Source: a virus. Taken from it: a DNA stretch of 36,983 bases. The notes under the pieces were generated by a model, which saw only the letters and a program-made list of their open reading frames with translations, had not been told where the DNA came from and did not search any database. A program made the translations under genes and the position numbers. The DNA is taken from positions 1 through 36,983 of the IMG/VR virus record IMGVR_UViG_3300006802_000041; one strand, given 5' to 3'. Positions 4,553 through 25,439 of the stretch are shown piece by piece. Position 1 is the first letter of the stretch; each line of letters starts with the position of its first letter.

Positions 4553-4616
4553 TATTAATCTTAGGCGCTGTTTTTATTGGCTGCTCACAAGCACAAAAAG
4601 TCCACTTAGCAGACAT
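4542..4616 (-). CDS. Possible 24-aa ORF coupled to the Rha-ANT gene
   Basis: Starts MSAKWTFCACEQ and ends KINIDQ. Its ATG overlaps the stop of the Rha-ANT gene (TAATG), a coupling arrangement used throughout this operon. It contains a CxC. No family recognised and it is short enough to be chance. Confidence 0.3.
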   Translation of the reverse strand: MSAKWTFCACEQPIKTAPKINIDQ

Positions 4617-5260
4617 TAAACCGCGCCCTCACTGATTAACTTCTCGTTTACCCATTGCTCACCAAGCGTCGTAAATAGCGCCTGAGAATGTCCTAGTTCA
4701 GTTTGCTTTAGCTCGCCATATCCATTATCGATAAACGATTGACAGAATACGCGCCCACGCTTAACGCCTTTGTTATAAACTCCGCCAAGCTCATCTAGAA
4801 AGCGGTTTAGCTTAATTGCTGATAGCTTGTGTTTTTGCCCTACTTGGCTAGCTGTTAAAAGTGTTGACCGTTCAACGCATTTATCAACGAATGCAACTTT
4901 AGGCGCTTGCTCGAGTAATAGCTTTTCCTTTTCAACTAAATGCTCTAGAGCTTCAAGGTATGTAGCTGGTAACTTTGGCGCTTGCTGCGATTCCAGTTCT
5001 TGCCAGCGATCCACAATTGCCGCTGTAAACTCTGGGCAGTTTTGAGCAACAAGCACCAAACAATCTCTCTTGCATAACAGGTATTCAGAGTAAACGTTTC
5101 CGTTATGCTCAAATTCTGACTCAGCCAATGGCTGGGTTAAAATGCCAGCATCAGATAATCGCTTAGCACTTCTCTTAATGTCTGAGTGATTTTTATTGAG
5201 CAGCTTTGAAATCTCACGACTGCTCATTGTTAAACTTTGTGATACTATTAATTGATTCAT
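4616..5260 (-). CDS. Rha-family / ANT (KilAC) phage regulator
   Basis: A 214-residue protein. Residues 1-90 resemble the Rha regulatory domain (MSSREISKLLNKNHSDIKRSAKRL, then YSEYLLCKRDCLVLVAQ and IVDRWQELE). After a linker, residues 118-205 (APKVAFVDKCVERSTLLTAS, KLSAIKLNRFLDELGGVY) match the ANT/KilAC antirepressor domain. Such proteins are DNA-binding regulators or antirepressors. GGAGAAATAAA gives a good ribosome site. It follows the winged-helix regulator, so the pair probably forms a regulatory operon. Confidence 0.85.
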   Translation of the reverse strand: MNQLIVSQSLTMSSREISKLLNKNHSDIKRSAKRLSDAGILTQPLAESEFEHNGNVYSEYLLCKRDCLVLVAQNCPEFTAAIVDRWQELESQQAPKLPATYLEALEHLVEKEKLLLEQAPKVAFVDKCVERSTLLTASQVGQKHKLSAIKLNRFLDELGGVYNKGVKRGRVFCQSFIDNGYGELKQTELGHSQALFTTLGEQWVNEKLISEGAV

Positions 5261-9892: not shown

Positions 9893-10699
9893 ATGTTTAC
9901 TTACTTATTTCAAGACTGTACAGCAGATGAGCTAGAGCAAGGCTTCTCTGGTTATGAGTTAGAGGTTTACGCAGACACTCTTGAGCTTGCCAAGATTGAA
10001 GCCGAAAGGATTGCTCGTAAAGGGTCTGAAGTTTCACTAATTGAAAGCAACGAGCCAGCACCAGCCAAGCCAGCAGCAGCACCAGCACCGTTAAGGGTTT
10101 TAAACTTGTATGCTGGTCTAGGCGGAAATCGTAAAGAGTGGGCTAACTGTGAAGTTACAGCTATAGAGTTTGATCCAAAGATTGCAGCTGTTTACCAGAG
10201 ATTGAACCCGAATGACACAGTAATTATCTGCGACGCACATCAGTACCTGCTCGAGCATTACCAAGAATTTGATTTTATATGGTCATCACCTCCATGTCAG
10301 AGCCATTCAAGAATGATAAGAAGCGGCAGAAACAGGAAGCCACGCTACCCAGACATGAAGCTATACGAGCAGATATTATTTCTTGAGCATAACTTTGCTG
10401 GCAAGTGGGTTGTTGAGAATGTCAAGCCATACTACAAAGAGCTTATCGAGTCGCAAAGTATAGGCCGCCATGTTTTTTGGGCTAACTTTGAAATACCCTT
10501 TATGGCAGAGCCTAAGTTTAAAAACTTCATTAACAGGCAAAACCTAAGCGACAAGCAAGATTTGATGGATTGGCTTGGGATTCACTACGATGAGAATATT
10601 TACTACGAAGGTAACCACTGCCCTACGCAGATACTCAGAAACTGTGTCCATCCATCAGTAGGTGCTCACGTGTTTAAGTCAATGCTGGGGTCAAAATGA
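9893..10699 (+). CDS. DNA (cytosine-5) methyltransferase with N-terminal extension
   Basis: A 268-residue protein. Residues 1-65 are an unrelated N-terminal segment and Pro/Ala linker. Then come motif I VLNLYAGLGGN, motif IV SSPPCQSHS with the catalytic Cys, and motif VI WVVENVKPYY. It transfers a methyl group from S-adenosylmethionine to cytosine, presumably to protect phage DNA. The target-recognition region is short, as in small phage enzymes. It has its own doubly-operated promoter, and its stop overlaps the next gene. Confidence 0.85.
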   Translation: MFTYLFQDCTADELEQGFSGYELEVYADTLELAKIEAERIARKGSEVSLIESNEPAPAKPAAAPAPLRVLNLYAGLGGNRKEWANCEVTAIEFDPKIAAVYQRLNPNDTVIICDAHQYLLEHYQEFDFIWSSPPCQSHSRMIRSGRNRKPRYPDMKLYEQILFLEHNFAGKWVVENVKPYYKELIESQSIGRHVFWANFEIPFMAEPKFKNFINRQNLSDKQDLMDWLGIHYDENIYYEGNHCPTQILRNCVHPSVGAHVFKSMLGSK

Positions 10700-17024: not shown

Positions 17025-18074
17025 TCACTTATACTCCTCTCCAAAATATTCAGTCTTATCATCGTAAGCCTTAGCTTGTGACGGTGTCAGCTTACGGTAG
17101 TTTGCATCGTACAGCCTTTCGAGGTGGAGAACTATTGCCGAGGCATGTTCGTTAGCATTGTACTCCAAATCAATGGAGAGCCTGCAATCTAGCTGTGCCA
17201 TCTCATCAATAGCTTTTTCGCGCTCTGATTTGATTGGTTGGAATTTAAGCCTATTTAAATTATATAGGTTCGAGTGCTCATTGTTGTCCATGTGCGCCCA
17301 TATCTGCGTCTTATCTTCGTTGTAAGCAATAACCTTTAATGTTCTGTGAAAGCTTTCATCTTCAAATTCAGATCTCCAGCAAAATGCAGTATCAGCACCA
17401 ACTGGCGGCAATTCACCTGCATCTGCCATGGCTTGTGTGAATACCGGCTTGCTTTCAGTCATAGCCTCAAACGCCTCTTTTTCTTCTGGAGTTTCGGTTT
17501 GGGTTGTCGATTGGTTTAGTGATGGGCGCCATTTGACTACTGGGTTAGCCAAGCCTCGAGTTACCCCGTCAAACATTATATTGCCAGAGTGAGCAATCAT
17601 TACTGCACCGTCCTTGTACTTAACTTCAACCTTTCCAACAAACTCAGGCTTCTCGCCTGTGTTTGTGCGCCATACGAATGATTCGGGAACTCCATAATCC
17701 CACATGCAAGATGAATTAAATGATAAAGGAGCGCCAATGTGATAGTTATTACCCTCGTCACCCTCAACAAAAACCAATCCAGCATTTTTAAAATCGCCTA
17801 CTGTTTTCATATTGCTTTCCTTTTCAGGAATCCATTTAGCTTCTGACATTTCGGCAACGCATTGGTTGAATTCTTCCTCCATACACACAAAAGCGACATC
17901 ATATCTTCCGCGCTTTGTTTCGTCGCGTGTATACCTGACGAAAGAGCCAATCTTAACATCAGCACAATATTCATTTGTGATCACCTGCATCAAAAACGGC
18001 CCATCAACCCCGCCATTCCTTGCGTTGTAGAAATCACCTTCTAACTCATTAACCGCATCAACTACTGTTTTCAT
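17025..18074 (-). CDS. Leftward cargo (moron-like) protein, 349 aa, function unknown
   Basis: A soluble protein encoded against the structural operon. MKTVVDAVNELEGDF at the N-terminus is partly echoed near residue 88 (MKTVGDFKNAGLVF), suggesting two related domains; the middle contains TETPEEKEAFEAM and FTQAMADAGELPPVGAD, and the C-terminus is helical. I do not recognise a catalytic motif. AAGGAG precedes the ATG. Accessory promoter copy 5 and a terminator make it a self-contained unit inserted between portal and MuF-like genes. Confidence 0.8.
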   Translation of the reverse strand: MKTVVDAVNELEGDFYNARNGGVDGPFLMQVITNEYCADVKIGSFVRYTRDETKRGRYDVAFVCMEEEFNQCVAEMSEAKWIPEKESNMKTVGDFKNAGLVFVEGDEGNNYHIGAPLSFNSSCMWDYGVPESFVWRTNTGEKPEFVGKVEVKYKDGAVMIAHSGNIMFDGVTRGLANPVVKWRPSLNQSTTQTETPEEKEAFEAMTESKPVFTQAMADAGELPPVGADTAFCWRSEFEDESFHRTLKVIAYNEDKTQIWAHMDNNEHSNLYNLNRLKFQPIKSEREKAIDEMAQLDCRLSIDLEYNANEHASAIVLHLERLYDANYRKLTPSQAKAYDDKTEYFGEEYK

Positions 18075-18100: not shown

Positions 18101-18137
18101 ATTGTATGCTAAAATTAATCAATTAGTGGTCAGACCA
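18101..18137 (-). promoter_or_regulatory. Accessory promoter module copy 5 (TGGTCTGACCA, 20 bp, TACAAT)
   Basis: Minus-strand TGGTCTGACCA (18137-18127), 20 bp, TACAAT (18106-18101), driving 17025-18074. On the plus strand an extended -10, TGC-TAAAAT (18107-18115), overlaps it and could restart the structural operon; the palindrome would then lie just past its start site, so binding could activate leftward and block rightward transcription. Confidence 0.75.
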
Positions 18138-21432: not shown

Positions 21433-21984
21433 ATGAGCATAAGAAATGAACTGCTTGAGGATATACTGGCGGCAATAGTTGCCTCTGGTGGCGCGACTGA
21501 TAACTGCCGAATTGGGTTTGCTGACTACTCAGATTTATCTACCCAAACGACCCCTATAGTTGTCACTGGTGGAGCTGGGTTTGTGTATTTAACAAATGAC
21601 GGGGCTGGGCCATTCACGAATAAGGCTTACCTGCCGACTGGCGTTACTGATGTATGGGATGCAATAGCCGGGAACTTTGACTTCACCGAGCTTAAGCTTG
21701 GGGATATGGTTGATATAAGGCTTGATCTAGATATCACGACATCATCACCGAATCAGCTTGTTGATGTGGAGCTTGAGCTTGGCAGCGGAGCTGGGCTGTA
21801 CAACATACCATTCGCTAGTGGCGTATTTAAAGATACTGGAGAGAAAAACGTAAACCGATACAACGGAATTTACATTGGTGACGCCAACACACTTAACGGG
21901 GGTGGAAGATTTAAAATATCTTCTGATGATAATGCCACGGTTAAAGTAAACGGGTGGTACTGCAAGATATTAATTAGAGGATAA
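21433..21984 (+). CDS. Probable head decoration / head-fibre protein
   Basis: A 183-residue protein. A short N-terminal helix (RNELLEDILAAIVASGG) precedes a beta-rich domain with GDMVDIRLDLDI, QLVDVELELGSGAG and KVNGWYCKILIRG, the type of jelly-roll head expected of a capsid-surface protein. AGGAG-like bases precede the ATG. It lies in the head block and is followed by a bidirectional terminator. The role is inferred from fold and place. Confidence 0.65.
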   Translation: MSIRNELLEDILAAIVASGGATDNCRIGFADYSDLSTQTTPIVVTGGAGFVYLTNDGAGPFTNKAYLPTGVTDVWDAIAGNFDFTELKLGDMVDIRLDLDITTSSPNQLVDVELELGSGAGLYNIPFASGVFKDTGEKNVNRYNGIYIGDANTLNGGGRFKISSDDNATVKVNGWYCKILIRG

Positions 21985-21985
21985 C

Positions 21986-22013
21986 AAAAAGCCCCTTTGA
22001 TTAGGGGCTTTTT
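21986..22013. terminator. Bidirectional terminator at the edge of the cargo island
   Basis: AAAAAGCCCC-TTTGATTA-GGGGCTTTTT. It separates the rightward decoration gene from the leftward island 22016-24775. Confidence 0.92.
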
Positions 22014-22015
22014 AC

Positions 22016-22198
22016 TTAAAGCTCTCTTATTTCTGATATTATCTTGTTTATCTTTTTATCAAAGTATTCAATATCGTCAACGCTTTCACAGATTCTAACG
22101 GCAGTATCCCCAAAGTGAATGTAAACCCCTCTTTCGTACCTGTCACCATCAGAATCGAAGCTGTCAACGCTGAATGATATATTTTGAAACTTGCCCAT
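22016..22198 (-). CDS. Small hypothetical protein, 60 aa
   Basis: MGKFQNISFSVDSFDSDGDR... includes RGVYIHFGDTAVRICESVDD and a C-terminal helix. GGGGGATAGC precedes the ATG. Last gene of the leftward accessory unit; no family recognised. Confidence 0.65.
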   Translation of the reverse strand: MGKFQNISFSVDSFDSDGDRYERGVYIHFGDTAVRICESVDDIEYFDKKINKIISEIREL

Positions 22199-22211
22199 GC
22201 TATCCCCCTTG

Positions 22212-22376
22212 CTAACACCCCATGAATACTGGCAAACTTGCTACACGCTTAACCGTCACAACCTTTTCGCGCTTATTGCTATCCTCGGCAATAACCCACA
22301 TCGGACGATAACCTAACTTCTCGCGACACTTTGACAAATCGCGCTCAACGCTTTCACGAATGTTTAATTCTTCCAT
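22212..22376 (-). CDS. Small hypothetical protein, 54 aa
   Basis: MEELNIRESVERDLSKCREK... then MWVIAEDSNKREKVVTVKRV, ending FMGC. GGAG lies 7 nt before the ATG and the gene follows the preceding stop by one base. It fills the gap between two leftward genes. No family recognised. Confidence 0.7.
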   Translation of the reverse strand: MEELNIRESVERDLSKCREKLGYRPMWVIAEDSNKREKVVTVKRVASLPVFMGC

Positions 22377-22377
22377 G

Positions 22378-22620
22378 TTATTTCTCCAGTTCTGCTAGCA
22401 GGGCATCTGCAATTTTTACTGATGACTTTACCGCCCAATCAATCTGTGAATAATCAGTCCCATCTATCATCGCGCCGTTTGATAGTAAACCCTGCATAGC
22501 CATAGCCGCAAAGTGTTCACGCTTGGTTAAGCCTTTGTGATTCTTATATCCCGTTGGCGCTCCGCCGATCATCCCTGTTACTTCTTGAAAACAGCTCGCT
22601 GGCCTATCTGCGTTTTTCAT
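22378..22620 (-). CDS. Conserved small phage protein (GLTKREHFAAMAMQG family), 80 aa
   Basis: The core GLTKREHFAAMAMQGLLSN followed by KSSVKIADALLAELEK is a recurrent pattern in phage and prophage accessory genes of unknown function. GGAGAAATAAAG precedes the ATG. It is the first gene after accessory promoter copy 6. Confidence 0.8.
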   Translation of the reverse strand: MKNADRPASCFQEVTGMIGGAPTGYKNHKGLTKREHFAAMAMQGLLSNGAMIDGTDYSQIDWAVKSSVKIADALLAELEK

Positions 22621-22654
22621 CTTTATTTCTCCAATCTCCTTAGTAAGTAAACAG

Positions 22655-22691
22655 ACTATACAACACTATTTTGCCTAATGTGGTCTGACCA
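22655..22691 (-). promoter_or_regulatory. Accessory promoter module copy 6 (TGGTCAGACCA, 20 bp, TATAGT)
   Basis: Minus-strand TGGTCAGACCA (22691-22681), 20 bp, TATAGT (22660-22655), beginning a few bases after the TAG stop of 22696-22950. It drives 22620 to 22016. Confidence 0.78.
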
Positions 22692-22695
22692 GTCG

Positions 22696-22950
22696 CTAAT
22701 TAAACATCAATCCATCTTGCTCTAACTTATCAGCAAGCTTATCTAAACAATCAACAACCCTGGAATCATCATTGCACTTATTGATACTAGTCATAAGATT
22801 AAACATCTTAACGTCCTTGGTTGTATCTCTGAGCTTTCTAGCGCACTTCCTAATCGCTGCTGCCTGACTTAATCCATCAACTCTGGCTAATTGCCATGCC
22901 AGCATTAAAGTGGTCATGTCGCTAGTGATTGAGCTTTCTTCTACTTTCAT
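22696..22950 (-). CDS. Hypothetical helical protein, 84 aa
   Basis: MKVEESSITSDMTTLMLAWQ... is all-helical, with LSQAAAIRKCARKLRD and CLDKLADKLEQDG segments. Its ATG directly follows the methyltransferase stop, and GAGGA provides the ribosome site, so it may serve with that enzyme. No family recognised. Confidence 0.65.
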   Translation of the reverse strand: MKVEESSITSDMTTLMLAWQLARVDGLSQAAAIRKCARKLRDTTKDVKMFNLMTSINKCNDDSRVVDCLDKLADKLEQDGLMFN

Positions 22951-23667
22951 TTAAGCGTCCTCTATTCGTTTCTTTGCTATTTCAAAATAATTGCCATCTA
23001 ACTCAATGCCGATGAAATTGCGGTTAAGGTTTTTAGCCGCTACGCCGGTTGAACCGCTGCCCATTGTAAAATCCAAAACCGTTTCACCTTCGTTGGTGTA
23101 GGTCTTTATTAGGTACTCCATTAAAGCGACTGGTTTTTGTGATTCATGCATGCCCTTTTCATTCTTGAAATTCAGCCTATCATTTGGGTAATTAGTAAAT
23201 TTTTGAATGTATGATTCACGCTTCCCAACCGAACTCAAGTGCCCCATAGACCCATTTTTTGTTTTATTGTTTTTTACTACCCTATCGCACCCAATCAAGC
23301 CTTGTGGGTTATATGTGCATTGCTTTGAGTAAAACACGCAAACATCTTCAATGCGTTTCATGGCTCTTTTCTTTGCTAGCTGAAAATTCCCCGCCTTCTC
23401 TTTTTCCCAGTACCAGCAGTATTTGAAATCCTTCATATTCGAAGCAATCAGCGTAGTAGTGAAAGGCTGACTGGCTGTCATCACAATAGCCCCGCTAGGT
23501 TTAATGATGCGCTTTAATTGTTCCCACATTTGTTCTAATGGAACTATTGAGTCCCATTTACACGCAGTTGTACCATAAGGAGGATCAGCCAGAATCATGT
23601 CAATCGAACCCGACTCAATCTCCTTCATACGTTCAAGGCAATCGCCATTCATTAATCTTGTTTCCAT
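22951..23667 (-). CDS. N6-adenine DNA methyltransferase
   Basis: About 238 residues from METRLMNGDC; the frame is open to an ATG at 23724. Motif IV DPPYGTT precedes motif I DFTMGSGSTG, the order of beta-class amino-methyltransferases, and HESQKPVALMEYLIK is the motif upstream of the SAM site. It would methylate adenine (or N4-cytosine) in phage DNA to avoid restriction. It is part of the inverted cargo island, with no nuclease gene beside it, so it is a lone enzyme. Confidence 0.88.
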   Translation of the reverse strand: METRLMNGDCLERMKEIESGSIDMILADPPYGTTACKWDSIVPLEQMWEQLKRIIKPSGAIVMTASQPFTTTLIASNMKDFKYCWYWEKEKAGNFQLAKKRAMKRIEDVCVFYSKQCTYNPQGLIGCDRVVKNNKTKNGSMGHLSSVGKRESYIQKFTNYPNDRLNFKNEKGMHESQKPVALMEYLIKTYTNEGETVLDFTMGSGSTGVAAKNLNRNFIGIELDGNYFEIAKKRIEDA

Positions 23668-23914
23668 TCTCTTTATCCATTCAGTTAAATTTAAATAATA
23701 ATGTTCATTAGACACGCTTGTCATGGATGACAGAACCTATCTCATTTATCACTTATCCAGATTAATAATATCAGCTACCTTTTCACATCCTTGTTGGTAG
23801 GCCAAACCATATAACCATGACTAAACGCTGTTCGTCCCCGTGTCTAAAGGTCATTAACTGGTGATCAATTAAATTGTAAAGCATATTTGCGGATAGCTTG
23901 CTTAAGCTAAGGAT

Positions 23915-23991
23915 TGGTCTCCCATACAGGATTCGAACCTGTAACCTAGAGGGTAGAAACCTCTTGCGCTATCCAGTTGCGCCAATGGGAG
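23915..23991 (-). tRNA. tRNA-Arg (UCU anticodon), CCA encoded
   Basis: Minus-strand cloverleaf: acceptor CTCCCAT/ATGGGAG, D stem GCGC/GCGC, anticodon stem AGAGG/CCTCT with loop TTTCTAC (anticodon TCT), T stem ACAGG/CCTGT with loop TTCGAAT, discriminator A and encoded CCA (23917-23915). It reads AGA, a codon used often in this phage and rare in many enterobacterial hosts. The gene-free stretch 23668-23914 upstream of the methyltransferase shows nothing else convincing; a 33-codon ORF at 23783-23884 lacks a ribosome site. Confidence 0.95.
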
Positions 23992-24019
23992 TTATCTCTG
24001 TGGAGCTATGAAAGGGTTT

Positions 24020-24121
24020 GTGTCTGGCAGGAATCGAACCTACAAAGCGTTTAGCCGCTACCTAGTTTTACTGCGGACTCGAACCGCACAGGCTTACTAA
24101 CCGTTACCAAATTTCAGACAC
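24020..24121 (-). tRNA. Aberrant tRNA-like gene, possibly type II Ser(CGA)
   Basis: Minus strand, 102 nt. Acceptor GTGTCTG/CAGACAC (10 bp if flanks are counted), good T arm GTAGG-TTCGATT-CCTGC, D arm with GGTAACGGTTAGTA, a stem TGCGG/CCGCA with loop TTCGAGT (anticodon CGA if this is the anticodon arm) and a variable-arm hairpin AGCG-GCTAAA-CGCT. Four extra bases follow the acceptor and the variable region is over-long; no CCA. It could be a decayed or specialised tRNA-like RNA. Confidence 0.5.
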
Positions 24122-24161
24122 AAAAAAGGGCTTATAAGATCTGACCCTAGTAACTCGGGAG

Positions 24162-24249
24162 ATGGTAAAGCATAAGTGAGAGTTTCCTCACGAACACCAA
24201 GACCAGAACCTATAAACCCAAATTACTTTACCATTTCAGCGACTCTCAC
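24162..24249. other. Two interleaved perfect inverted repeats (pseudoknot-like) near the tRNAs
   Basis: Order on the plus strand: ATGGTAAAG (24162-24170), GTGAGAGT (24176-24183), CTTTACCAT (24226-24234), ACTCTCAC (24242-24249). The arms cross, so the RNA could form a pseudoknot or two alternative folds. GTGAGAG to CTCTCAC spans 74 nt, tRNA length, and on the minus strand contains a D-arm-like GCTGAAATGGTAAAGT but no normal T arm. The stretch 24122-24305 has no convincing gene. Confidence 0.4.
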
Positions 24250-24305
24250 ACCGCTATCTAACAACTTAATTATACCGCCACATAAACGACAAAACAACAG
24301 TATAT

Positions 24306-24545
24306 TTAATAATCATAGTTACCCTTGTTACAATTGTAAAACTCTAAAACCGAACAGCATTGAATGCCTTTCGGCAGAACAAACCTATAAGATAGGTAGT
24401 CAAAATATAAAGACGTTAACTGGCTTTCGCTTAGATGATTAATCTCTCCACCCTCAATCTCATACAGTATAGGGATCATGGCGGCTATACCAAAACCGCC
24501 AAATAAAAACCAATAAAACATAGTCTTGCAATAGATATCGCACAT
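24306..24545 (-). CDS. Small TM protein of the cargo island, 79 aa
   Basis: From MCDIYCKT. A hydrophobic span FYWFLFGGFGIAAMIPILY (about residues 9-28) is followed by a soluble, Cys-containing tail. The start overlaps the stop of 24545-24775 (TAATG). Function unknown; an envelope role is possible. Confidence 0.6.
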   Translation of the reverse strand: MCDIYCKTMFYWFLFGGFGIAAMIPILYEIEGGEINHLSESQLTSLYFDYLSYRFVLPKGIQCCSVLEFYNCNKGNYDY

Positions 24546-24775
24546 TAAGCGTTTACCGCTAACCAATTAATGAACTCAGCATCAGTAAGGCTTTCAAGTG
24601 TGGATTTCTGAATACTCACCACTTCATTGACATGCGCACCAGTTAACAACACTGCCAAAGAAAACGCCTTTCTAGCTTTTGCAGGCAAAGCGTTTAAGCG
24701 ATTAAAGCCTTTTGAGTAACGAGCTTCTGAAGCGTTAACCTTGGCGACTGTCTTTGTAATTGTTGATTTGTTCAT
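24545..24775 (-). CDS. Small hypothetical protein, 76 aa
   Basis: MNKSTITKTVAKVNASEARY... is helical and basic in its first half (PAKARKAFSLAVLLTG) and acidic in its second. AGAGAG precedes the ATG. First gene of accessory promoter copy 7. No family recognised. Confidence 0.6.
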   Translation of the reverse strand: MNKSTITKTVAKVNASEARYSKGFNRLNALPAKARKAFSLAVLLTGAHVNEVVSIQKSTLESLTDAEFINWLAVNA

Positions 24776-24814: not shown

Positions 24815-24851
24815 ACTATAGCAAACAATTTGCGCCTAAGTGGTCTGACCA
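24815..24851 (-). promoter_or_regulatory. Accessory promoter module copy 7 plus GCAAA-N3-TTTGC site
   Basis: Minus-strand TGGTCAGACCA (24851-24841), 20 bp, TGC-TATAGT (24820-24815). The spacer holds a second palindrome, GCAAA-N3-TTTGC (24821-24833), like those at 9817-9850. From that palindrome through the leader the sequence nearly matches the C5 methyltransferase promoter. Confidence 0.78.
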
Positions 24852-24863
24852 GCTAATAAGCGC

Positions 24864-24869
24864 TATAAT
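24864..24869 (+). promoter_or_regulatory. Rightward -10 (TATAAT) restarting the structural operon
   Basis: TATAAT 25 bp before the connector gene start and just outside the leftward accessory palindrome, which would sit at about -35 to -25 for this promoter. No -35 is seen. Confidence 0.5.
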
Positions 24870-24893: not shown

Positions 24894-25439
24894 ATGTTAA
24901 TTGTCGAAACGGGTAGCGGGGTTGCTGATTCAGATAGTTATCTATCGCTTGTGGATGCGAGAGCGCTCGCTGAGAAGTACGGAATAACTTTGCCTGCCGA
25001 TGATACCGAGGCAGAGGTTTTATTGCGTAACGGCTATCTAGGGCTGATTACAATCGAACCTCAACTGCAAGGCTACAGAACGCACGACATTCAAACCAAC
25101 ATCTACCCGCGCACAGGCGTATATAAAAACTGTGTCGCTGTTGGTGCTGACTCAATACCGAATGAAGTTAAGCTGTCACAGCTCTACCAGGCAGATGCGA
25201 TTCAATCGGGCGCATCAACTAACGGAGTTATAAGCGGTCAGAAGCTAAAAAGCTTTAGTGTTGATGGTGTCTATTCAGAAACATACCAAGACGGCTCTAG
25301 CGCATCATTAAACGCAGTTGTTCAGGGTGTTCAAAATCAAATGTATCCACTGACTAAAGTCGGCTATCAGCAATCACCGTGCGGTGGTGGCGGTTACGGT
25401 AATGGCTTGGGTCGAGAGAGCATGGGTTATCTACGATGA
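24894..25439 (+). CDS. Head-tail connector (DnaT-like fold family)
   Basis: A 181-residue protein: MLIVETGSGVADSDSYLSLVDA followed by EVLLRNGYLGLI, a pattern of siphophage connector proteins often annotated as putative DnaT-like ssDNA-binding proteins. The C-terminus is Gly-rich. AGAGGA precedes the ATG; it overlaps the next gene by 4 nt. It resumes the structural order after the inverted cargo island. Confidence 0.75.
   Translation: MLIVETGSGVADSDSYLSLVDARALAEKYGITLPADDTEAEVLLRNGYLGLITIEPQLQGYRTHDIQTNIYPRTGVYKNCVAVGADSIPNEVKLSQLYQADAIQSGASTNGVISGQKLKSFSVDGVYSETYQDGSSASLNAVVQGVQNQMYPLTKVGYQQSPCGGGGYGNGLGRESMGYLR

Follow-up and report, generated by a model that had tools for sequence, protein, structure and literature searches.

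Few classes of large structured RNA are known in phages. One published account (PMC12286853) describes GOLLD as a large, structured RNA of phages that is often encoded close to tRNAs and sometimes has tRNAs in its linker; its 3' part is conserved while its 5' part varies. In the same account, ROOL is a large RNA of phages that contains several pseudoknots, has a linker of variable make-up and is found near tRNA islands. The Vibrio phage ICP1 also produces an abundant, long non-coding RNA of about 800 nt, of unknown class (PMC7567579).

Here we describe a large putative RNA in a 36,983-nt stretch of viral DNA (the window; IMG/VR record IMGVR_UViG_3300006802_000041, positions 1-36,983), within a block at 22016-24775. 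It resembles GOLLD and ROOL in its size, its phage setting and its tRNA linker, and is not a member of either by model match. Like GOLLD (RF02032), the window-type RNA is phage-encoded, contains tRNAs in 5 of 28 scanned loci and shares its large size, conserved 3' part and variable 5' part. It differs in being mostly shorter, in having modules swapped between phages, and in that no 3' terminator was seen. The homo-oligomeric cage is a feature of GOLLD. With ROOL (RF03087), the window RNA shares its size, phage location, variable linker, several pseudoknots and the vicinity of tRNAs. The ICP1 RNA is similar in being a long RNA of a Vibrio phage.

The RNA was not recognised by Rfam, GOLLD and ROOL included. 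RF02032 matched none of 11 records at E≤10 and was absent from a cmscan of the window and 15 loci. RF03087 matched none of 14 records, a weak negative because no control genome gave a match, and it was also absent from cmscan. The ICP1 RNA had no convincing similarity by blastn, where the best hit was an antisense 21-mer (E 0.02), and model R1 had no match in ICP1 (L050).

Gene content and variability of the block

The leftward block reported in the earlier note was recovered, with ORFs of 60, 54, 80, 84, 257, 86 and 76 aa in place. The protein-coding and flanking features are as follows.

~21987-22014, no strand assigned: A-tract/T-tract hairpin, terminator-like in both directions, read from sequence
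22016-22198, minus strand: 60-aa ORF, no family match
22212-22376, minus strand: 54-aa ORF, with homologues in the corresponding gap of L032, L033 and L034
22378-22620, minus strand: 80-aa ORF, PHROG 2201 (unknown function)
22681-22691, minus strand: palindrome TGGTCAGACCA, TATAGT ~25 nt downstream
22696-22950, minus strand: 84-aa ORF, DUF7740 at the Pfam cut-off
22951-23667, minus strand: DNA methyltransferase, 238 aa with corrected start METRL, from Pfam, PHROG and homologues
24306-24566, minus strand: 86-aa ORF, TTG start, later start possible, no family match
24545-24775, minus strand: 76-aa ORF, no family match
24841-24851, minus strand: palindrome TGGTCAGACCA, TATAGT ~25 nt downstream

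The 257-aa ORF, read in the earlier note as an adenine methyltransferase, encodes an N6/N4 DNA methyltransferase (Pfam N6_N4_Mtase, 6e-31, 108.5 bits against a cut-off of 26.7; PHROG 67, 6e-73). Its best PDB relatives are DpnA, CcrM and MboIIA, and it is 63% and 59% identical to the proteins encoded behind the RNA in jenny 12G5 and HS2, respectively. A start at 23724 overlaps the 3' end of the RNA. The HS2 and jenny homologues begin at the residue equivalent to ATG 23667, which is likely the true start. The small proteins had no match or matched only families whose function is unknown, except that the 80-aa protein weakly matched a transcriptional-regulator PHROG (E 0.007).

The palindrome TGGTCWGACCA has seven mismatch-free sites on one strand of the window (453, 2386, 8809, 12591, 18127, 22681 and 24841). 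With up to two mismatches and both strands counted, there were 21 matches against 6.9 expected, a number reached in 0 of 100 shuffles. The two accessory promoters said to serve the block can be seen as palindrome copies with TATAGT, but the methyltransferase would lie behind the putative promoter of the RNA rather than an accessory copy, because the RNA has its own TATAAT and the gene starts at 23667. The rightward TATAAT is readable at 24864-24869 as a putative promoter. The bidirectional terminator placed at 21986-22013 coincides with the hairpin listed above, and terminator-like stems were listed at 21993-22007 and 22004-22025.

We compared the block with five relatives (L032-L036), which were found through the adaptor protein and are 62-84% identical in it. 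Capsid and connector genes were retained as far as the contigs extend, and the gap held leftward ORFs different from those of the window. Homologues of the 54-aa ORF occurred in three of the five, while the methyltransferase and a tRNA in the gap occurred in none. An RNA of the window's family was present in one, L032, in the opposite direction. This synteny comparison bore out the suggestion of an accessory islet with variable ORF content, and a structural block conserved throughout was not what these five relatives displayed. Judged by sequence, the small ORFs around the RNA are variable accessory cargo; a role of the block genes in counter-defence or host modification is a guess.

A putative structured RNA and its phage relatives

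The minus strand from ~24262 to 23691 is best read as one structured RNA of ~560 nt with its own putative sigma70-type promoter. Its parts run from a 5' pseudoknot module with a U tract through a linker slot and a 3' head to the 3' tail.

24269-24297, minus strand: putative RNA promoter TTGTTT-17-TATAAT with a weak -35, TATAAT at 24269-24274
24122-24261, minus strand: 5' pseudoknot module, hairpin loop helix a, helices b and c, U tract
24242-24249 (hairpin loop) with 24176-24183, minus strand: helix a, 5' module
24224-24234 with 24162-24172, minus strand: helix b, 5' module
24209-24219 with CTTATAAGCCC, minus strand: closing helix c, 5' module, followed by the U tract
24122-24127, minus strand: U tract, end of the 5' module
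24014-24121, minus strand: linker, tRNA-like domain with a 7-bp acceptor-like stem, GUGUCUG/CAGACAC
23856-24013, minus strand: 3' head of class 2 type, CUCCACAGAGAU...UAGCUUAAGCAAGCUAUCCGCA, interrupted by a tRNA (cf. NF copy 2 and phage 1.122)
23915-23991, minus strand: tRNA-Arg(UCU), CCA encoded, lying within the 3' head as an insertion (ARAGORN; cmscan 64.8 bits)
23691-23855, minus strand: 3' tail of class 3, covariance model score 153.4 bits (as a training member)
23839-23847 with 23708-23716, minus strand: helix d, 3' tail
23815-23821 with 23720-23726, minus strand: helix e, 3' tail
within 23691-23855, minus strand: motif GACGAACAGC and terminal UCUAAUGA, 3' tail

Transcription would start near 24261, and TATAAT or a near match stands at the equivalent place in the relatives. 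The 3' tail ends just upstream of the likely methyltransferase start. The region 24005-24300 folded moderately better than shuffles (z -2.35), and the isolated stretch 23740-23900 no better (z 0.52).

Relatives occur in Vibrio and Pseudoalteromonas phages, where they are unannotated or overlapped by hypothetical genes. Sequence matches were found in more than 100 Vibrio phage records, some with named cultivated hosts, and an RNA annotation was absent from the Vibrio phage records read. NF, phiV208, 1.131 and Seahorse are cultivated carriers. Among 29 loci the length ranged from 346 to 658 nt. In 22 hand-curated loci, with strands picked by eye, Watson-Crick pairs filled 151 of 151 cells in helix a (17 distinct strand pairs), 116 of 119 in helix d (15 pairs) and 162 of 164 in helix e (10 pairs). 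In an automatic comparison, the two strands of each helix fitted each other better within one RNA than with strands taken from other RNAs of the family (reached in 0 of 20,000 permutations of partners per helix; n=25, 19 and 22 distinct). Conserved secondary structure is thus supported by covariation, as in large structured non-coding RNAs. Helix d was weak or absent in L032, L013 and 1.115.

A covariance model trained on nine class-3 tails only, the class of the window's tail, matched 11 further loci (10 of class 1 and one of class 4) with E of 0.0017-0.27. All matches lay in the expected tail and none elsewhere in 262,835 nt. The model missed the class 2 tails, along with three tails of class 1 and one of class 4. 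In plasmids, the full window stretch matched at the tRNA-Arg only, and the NF and 1.122 RNAs had no match. The class 1 head pattern had a sole match in 84,980 species genomes, in L031 (Psychroflexus), taken as chance because the site reads as coding and is without other RNA parts. Two patterns run against viral_contigs and a class 2 tail pattern search gave no match.

A common linker and 3' part is combined with different 5' modules in NF/phiV208, 1.122/1.275 and BS5/L054. Despite the recombined parts, 5' module, linker and 3' part kept one order and orientation in the loci read. On sequence comparison, we regard the family, its part order, the three long-range covarying helices, the module exchange and the occupation of the linker, by true tRNAs or by a domain that an acceptor-like stem closes, as established.

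The tRNA-Arg and the tRNA-like linker

The tRNA-Arg of the earlier note was found by ARAGORN at 23915-23991. The aberrant tRNA-like gene beside it does contain a tRNA-like domain, but as the linker of the larger RNA and not as a separate gene. The genes of the block were where the note had put them, but its central element, a putative large structured RNA, had been overlooked and read as two genes. We abandoned the idea of a tRNA-like RNA and a tRNA as separate small RNAs once four unrelated phages proved to have similar unannotated gaps of ~610 nt.

The linker shares with tRNA (RF00005) the acceptor-like stem, two T-arm-like hairpins (24071-24089 and 24027-24043) and a slot occupied by real tRNAs in relatives; it differs in having no canonical anticodon arm. 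ARAGORN called only the tRNA-Arg in the window and not 24014-24121, cmscan of the window gave this linker no tRNA match at E≤10, and the NF homologue scored 21 bits with the tRNA model, under the cut-off of 29. With its tmRNA search, ARAGORN found no tmRNA in the window. The linker slot holds real tRNAs in four loci besides the window. When real tRNAs are present, they always include Arg(UCU), as in all five tRNA-bearing loci.

Possible roles of the RNA

We consider it probable that this is a large phage RNA that stands alone and precedes exchangeable cargo, in the window the methyltransferase. All parts would be made as one transcript running leftward from the putative promoter, and the RNA would fold and act on its own, much like GOLLD and ROOL. 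The folded scaffold may hold or display the tRNA or tRNA-like piece. The genes behind it would be exchangeable passengers, reached by read-through or from their own promoters; among the relatives they encode methyltransferases, phosphatases, HNH/Orf172 proteins, a head adaptor and unknowns.

Alternatively, the RNA might be a long structured 5' leader controlling the downstream gene by attenuation at the U tract, antitermination or translation control. We hold this possible, at clearly lower likelihood. In its favour, no terminator was identified at the RNA 3' end, a same-strand ORF follows in each of the 27 loci checked, and AAGGA is often present no more than 20 nt from where the RNA ends. 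The hairpin and U tract behind the pseudoknot resemble an attenuator, and related methyltransferases lie behind the RNA in the window, HS2 and jenny. However, the downstream genes are unrelated between phages and even include a head-tail adaptor (L032), in BS5, L054 and L052 the RNA is separated from the gene by promoter-like sequences, internal tRNAs would be odd for a leader, and the U tract is missing in 2 of 29 loci.

The end of the 5' module resembles an intrinsic terminator, and this module might be a small RNA of its own. A division into two RNAs, in which a small pseudoknotted RNA of ~130 nt has its own terminator and is followed by a tRNA or tRNA-like operon and an unrelated structured 3' RNA, seems improbable. 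The U tract in 27 of 29 loci, the module exchange at this border, and BT-1011, in which a promoter, the 5' module with its U tract and a stub of a tRNA are all that is left, would fit such a division, but the order of the parts is constant in the loci read and is maintained without a U tract in K30 and 1.144. A DNA-level element, such as a recombination hot spot or a replication or packaging site whose inverted repeats mimic RNA helices, would suit the mosaic modules and the position at cargo-exchange sites but is very improbable, given paired strands 60-180 nt apart that are pseudoknotted and keep complementarity while the sequence changes, a promoter-like element before the RNA in the loci read, and two copies each in NF and G007.

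Beyond the stand-alone RNA favoured here, a more specific and rather unlikely proposal is that this is a new phage RNA class, a swappable chassis whose folded 5' and 3' domains pass between phages like cassettes and whose fixed slot takes real tRNAs or a mimic of one. It might shield or present these against host tRNA-targeting defences, or serve as a decoy, beside DNA-modifying cargo. The analysis moves the likely start of a phage methyltransferase and accounts for what had looked like a pseudo-tRNA as the linker domain of a larger RNA. Because module swaps and the presence or absence of tRNAs occur naturally, structure-function relations of this family would be open to direct tests.

The leftward block and its variability

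The leftward ORFs form a block between a capsid-region gene and the head-tail adaptor gene.

21433-21984, capsid-region gene flanking the block
22016-24775, - strand, leftward ORF block
24262-23691, - strand, structured RNA of about 560 nt
24894-25439, head-tail adaptor (PHROG 477) flanking the block

All the ORFs that the earlier note named in this block were found in the ORF listing, and its tRNA-Arg was called by ARAGORN. The palindrome repeats were above chance, with TATAGT downstream of both copies within the block. In profile searches, the small proteins of the block matched unknown-function families or no family; the 80-aa protein showed an additional weak match to a transcriptional-regulator PHROG (E 0.007). 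The supposed aberrant tRNA-like gene forms the linker of the larger structured RNA; the tRNA-Arg is placed in the 3' head of this RNA, not in the linker.

As the note had anticipated, the islet varied among relatives. The gap held other leftward ORFs in five contigs found through the adaptor protein (L032-L035, adaptor 82-84% identical; L036, 62%). The RNA was found in one of these five, several of which are fragments, so that absence there counts weakly. In L032 (1385-1790) its orientation is the reverse of that in the window: it reads rightward, directly into the gene for the head-tail adaptor.

Elsewhere in the window, a palindrome copy (18127-18137) stands 53 nt upstream of an ORF of 349 aa that reads leftward (17025-18074, - strand; PHROG 3483, unknown function) between the portal and capsid genes, and a second inverted structural-region gene may therefore share this kind of promoter. 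The copies at 453, 2386, 8809, 10838 and 12591 are upstream of early-region genes; that at 453 precedes ORF 85-414, just below a NinB-like gene (464-916). The window also encodes a second DNA methyltransferase-like protein (9893-10699, + strand; PHROG 363) and an antirepressor Ant-like protein (4616-5260, - strand; PHROG 63), the latter suggesting a temperate relative or ancestor.

Spread and anatomy of the RNA

When the region was compared with 50,697 phage records by megablast, matches were confined to short stretches, several without an annotated feature.

Megablast matches in the window.
24010-24261, Vibrio phage NF, 89%
24012-24132, phiV208, 93%
23755-23877, V. breoganii phages, 88%

A more sensitive search found three different, partly overlapping pieces, which in phages NF, 1.122, phiV208 and 1.131 lay within unannotated gaps of about 610 nt. 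The gaps of NF, 1.131 and 1.122 matched 37, 105 and 24 records, respectively, and the L032 RNA matched 83; the matches listed were all Vibrio or Pseudoalteromonas phages. Across these four lists the total is at least 105, the largest single count. The NF count includes records matching in the flank or promoter only (V039C) or the 5' module only (BT-1011). All that is left in BT-1011 (locus L023, 1501-1689) is the promoter and 5' module with the U tract and a stub of tRNA-Met, apparently a natural deletion of the linker and 3' part. V039C (locus L024, 1499-1677) shares this promoter neighbourhood but lacks the RNA and appears to be an empty site.

The RNAs, set side by side, had a common order of promoter (TATAAT or a near match), 5' module, linker, 3' head, 3' tail and then an ORF; the names head, tail, class 1-4 and helix a-e are introduced here. 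The 5' module, roughly 95-136 nt long, was followed by a U tract in 27 of 29 loci. At its start is a short hairpin; pairing of the hairpin loop with a remote site gives helix a, which forms a pseudoknot with the closing helix that runs into the U tract. The linker consists of a 7-bp stem varying in sequence, of a short stretch, or of tRNAs.

Linker stems and linker tRNAs.
GUGUCUG/CAGACAC: window, NF, phiV208
GUAUCUG/CAGAUAC: NF copy 2, 1.122, 1.275, L006
GUACCUG/CAGGUAC: L014
GUGUCUA/UAGACAC: BS5
tRNAs Trp+Arg: phage 1.116
tRNAs Met+Arg: vB_VaM_H2
tRNAs Trp+Arg+Gly: Seahorse
tRNAs Ser+Arg: L007

In the tail, the long-range helices d and e are nested around a GAUAAACAGC-like motif, and a terminal UCUAAUGA closes it. 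Class 1 tails (such as locus L009, 3316-3615) contain an invariant AAAAG stretch that may pair with the U tract (11 pairs in L009), which would bring the 5' and 3' parts into contact.

Evidence for the fold

The longest Watson-Crick run was compared automatically between each RNA's own strands and those of other members; for helix a the longest run in some loci was the neighbouring helix b or a different pairing.

Longest run, own strands vs other members; Watson-Crick cells in curated strands of 22 loci.
Helix a: 7.68 vs 5.45 (25 distinct); 151/151
Helix d: 5.74 vs 4.35 (19 distinct); 116/119
Helix e: 7.27 vs 5.46 (22 distinct); 162/164

None of 20,000 partner permutations equalled the observed value for any of the three helices. 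Against same-module shuffles, helix a was equalled in 0 to 32 of 300 for most sequences (Seahorse, 87; 1.275, 85). On its own it is only modestly unusual in each sequence, and its strength lies in recurrence across differing sequences. RNAalifold on 12 class 1 tails gave 33 pairs, 15 of them with at least one double change. Covariance model R1, built from nine class 3 tails, matched its training tails, a further 10 tails of class 1 and one of class 4, and nothing else across 36 sources (262,835 nt); it missed the class 2 tails, NF copy 1, phiV208, 1.265 and L013. Single-sequence folding lends weak support to the fold (z -2.35 for 24005-24300; 0.52 for 23740-23900).

With Rfam 15, tRNAs alone exceeded the cut-offs in the window and relatives; the GOLLD model matched none of 11 records and the ROOL model none of 14, the latter a weak negative as no control genome gave a match. 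Both classes are without known function, so likeness to them confers none on this RNA. No paper naming it was found in a literature search of mostly titles and abstract openings, with few subscription journals.

Exchangeable modules and the genes behind them

NF and phiV208 had the linker and 3' part in common and differed in the 5' module. Phages 1.275 and 1.122 were alike except for the 5' module (97% across query 159-606), and L054 shared the linker and 3' part with BS5 (95%) and had a window-like 5' module. As read from the RNAs set side by side, jenny combines a class 1 head with a class 2 tail; in 1.131 and in the window the tail is of class 3, behind a head of class 1 and of class 2, respectively. 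NF carried two differing copies (L028, 1303-1848; L002, 7682-8291), with a different phosphatase gene behind each, and phage record G007 also had two. Overall, this is very likely a genuine family of structured RNAs whose parts can be exchanged. Whether it acts as one stand-alone RNA, or as a leader or two RNAs, is a closer matter, in which we lean towards the single RNA.

The first ORF 3' of the RNA was surveyed in 27 loci, with the window counted separately.

First ORF 3' of the RNA.
DNA methyltransferase: HS2, jenny, 1.122, 1.275, 1.144 (annotation or sequence); L014 (sequence)
Calcineurin-like phosphatase: NF (twice), phiV208
HNH protein: K30
Orf172-like protein: 1.265
Head-tail adaptor: L032
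Probable head protein: BS5, L054, L009, L052 (sequence and position only)
Small protein, function unassigned: among the other surveyed loci

From its corrected start, the window methyltransferase was 63% identical to that of jenny and 59% to that of HS2. Judged from the methyltransferases and the tRNA slot, a role in counter-defence is possible.
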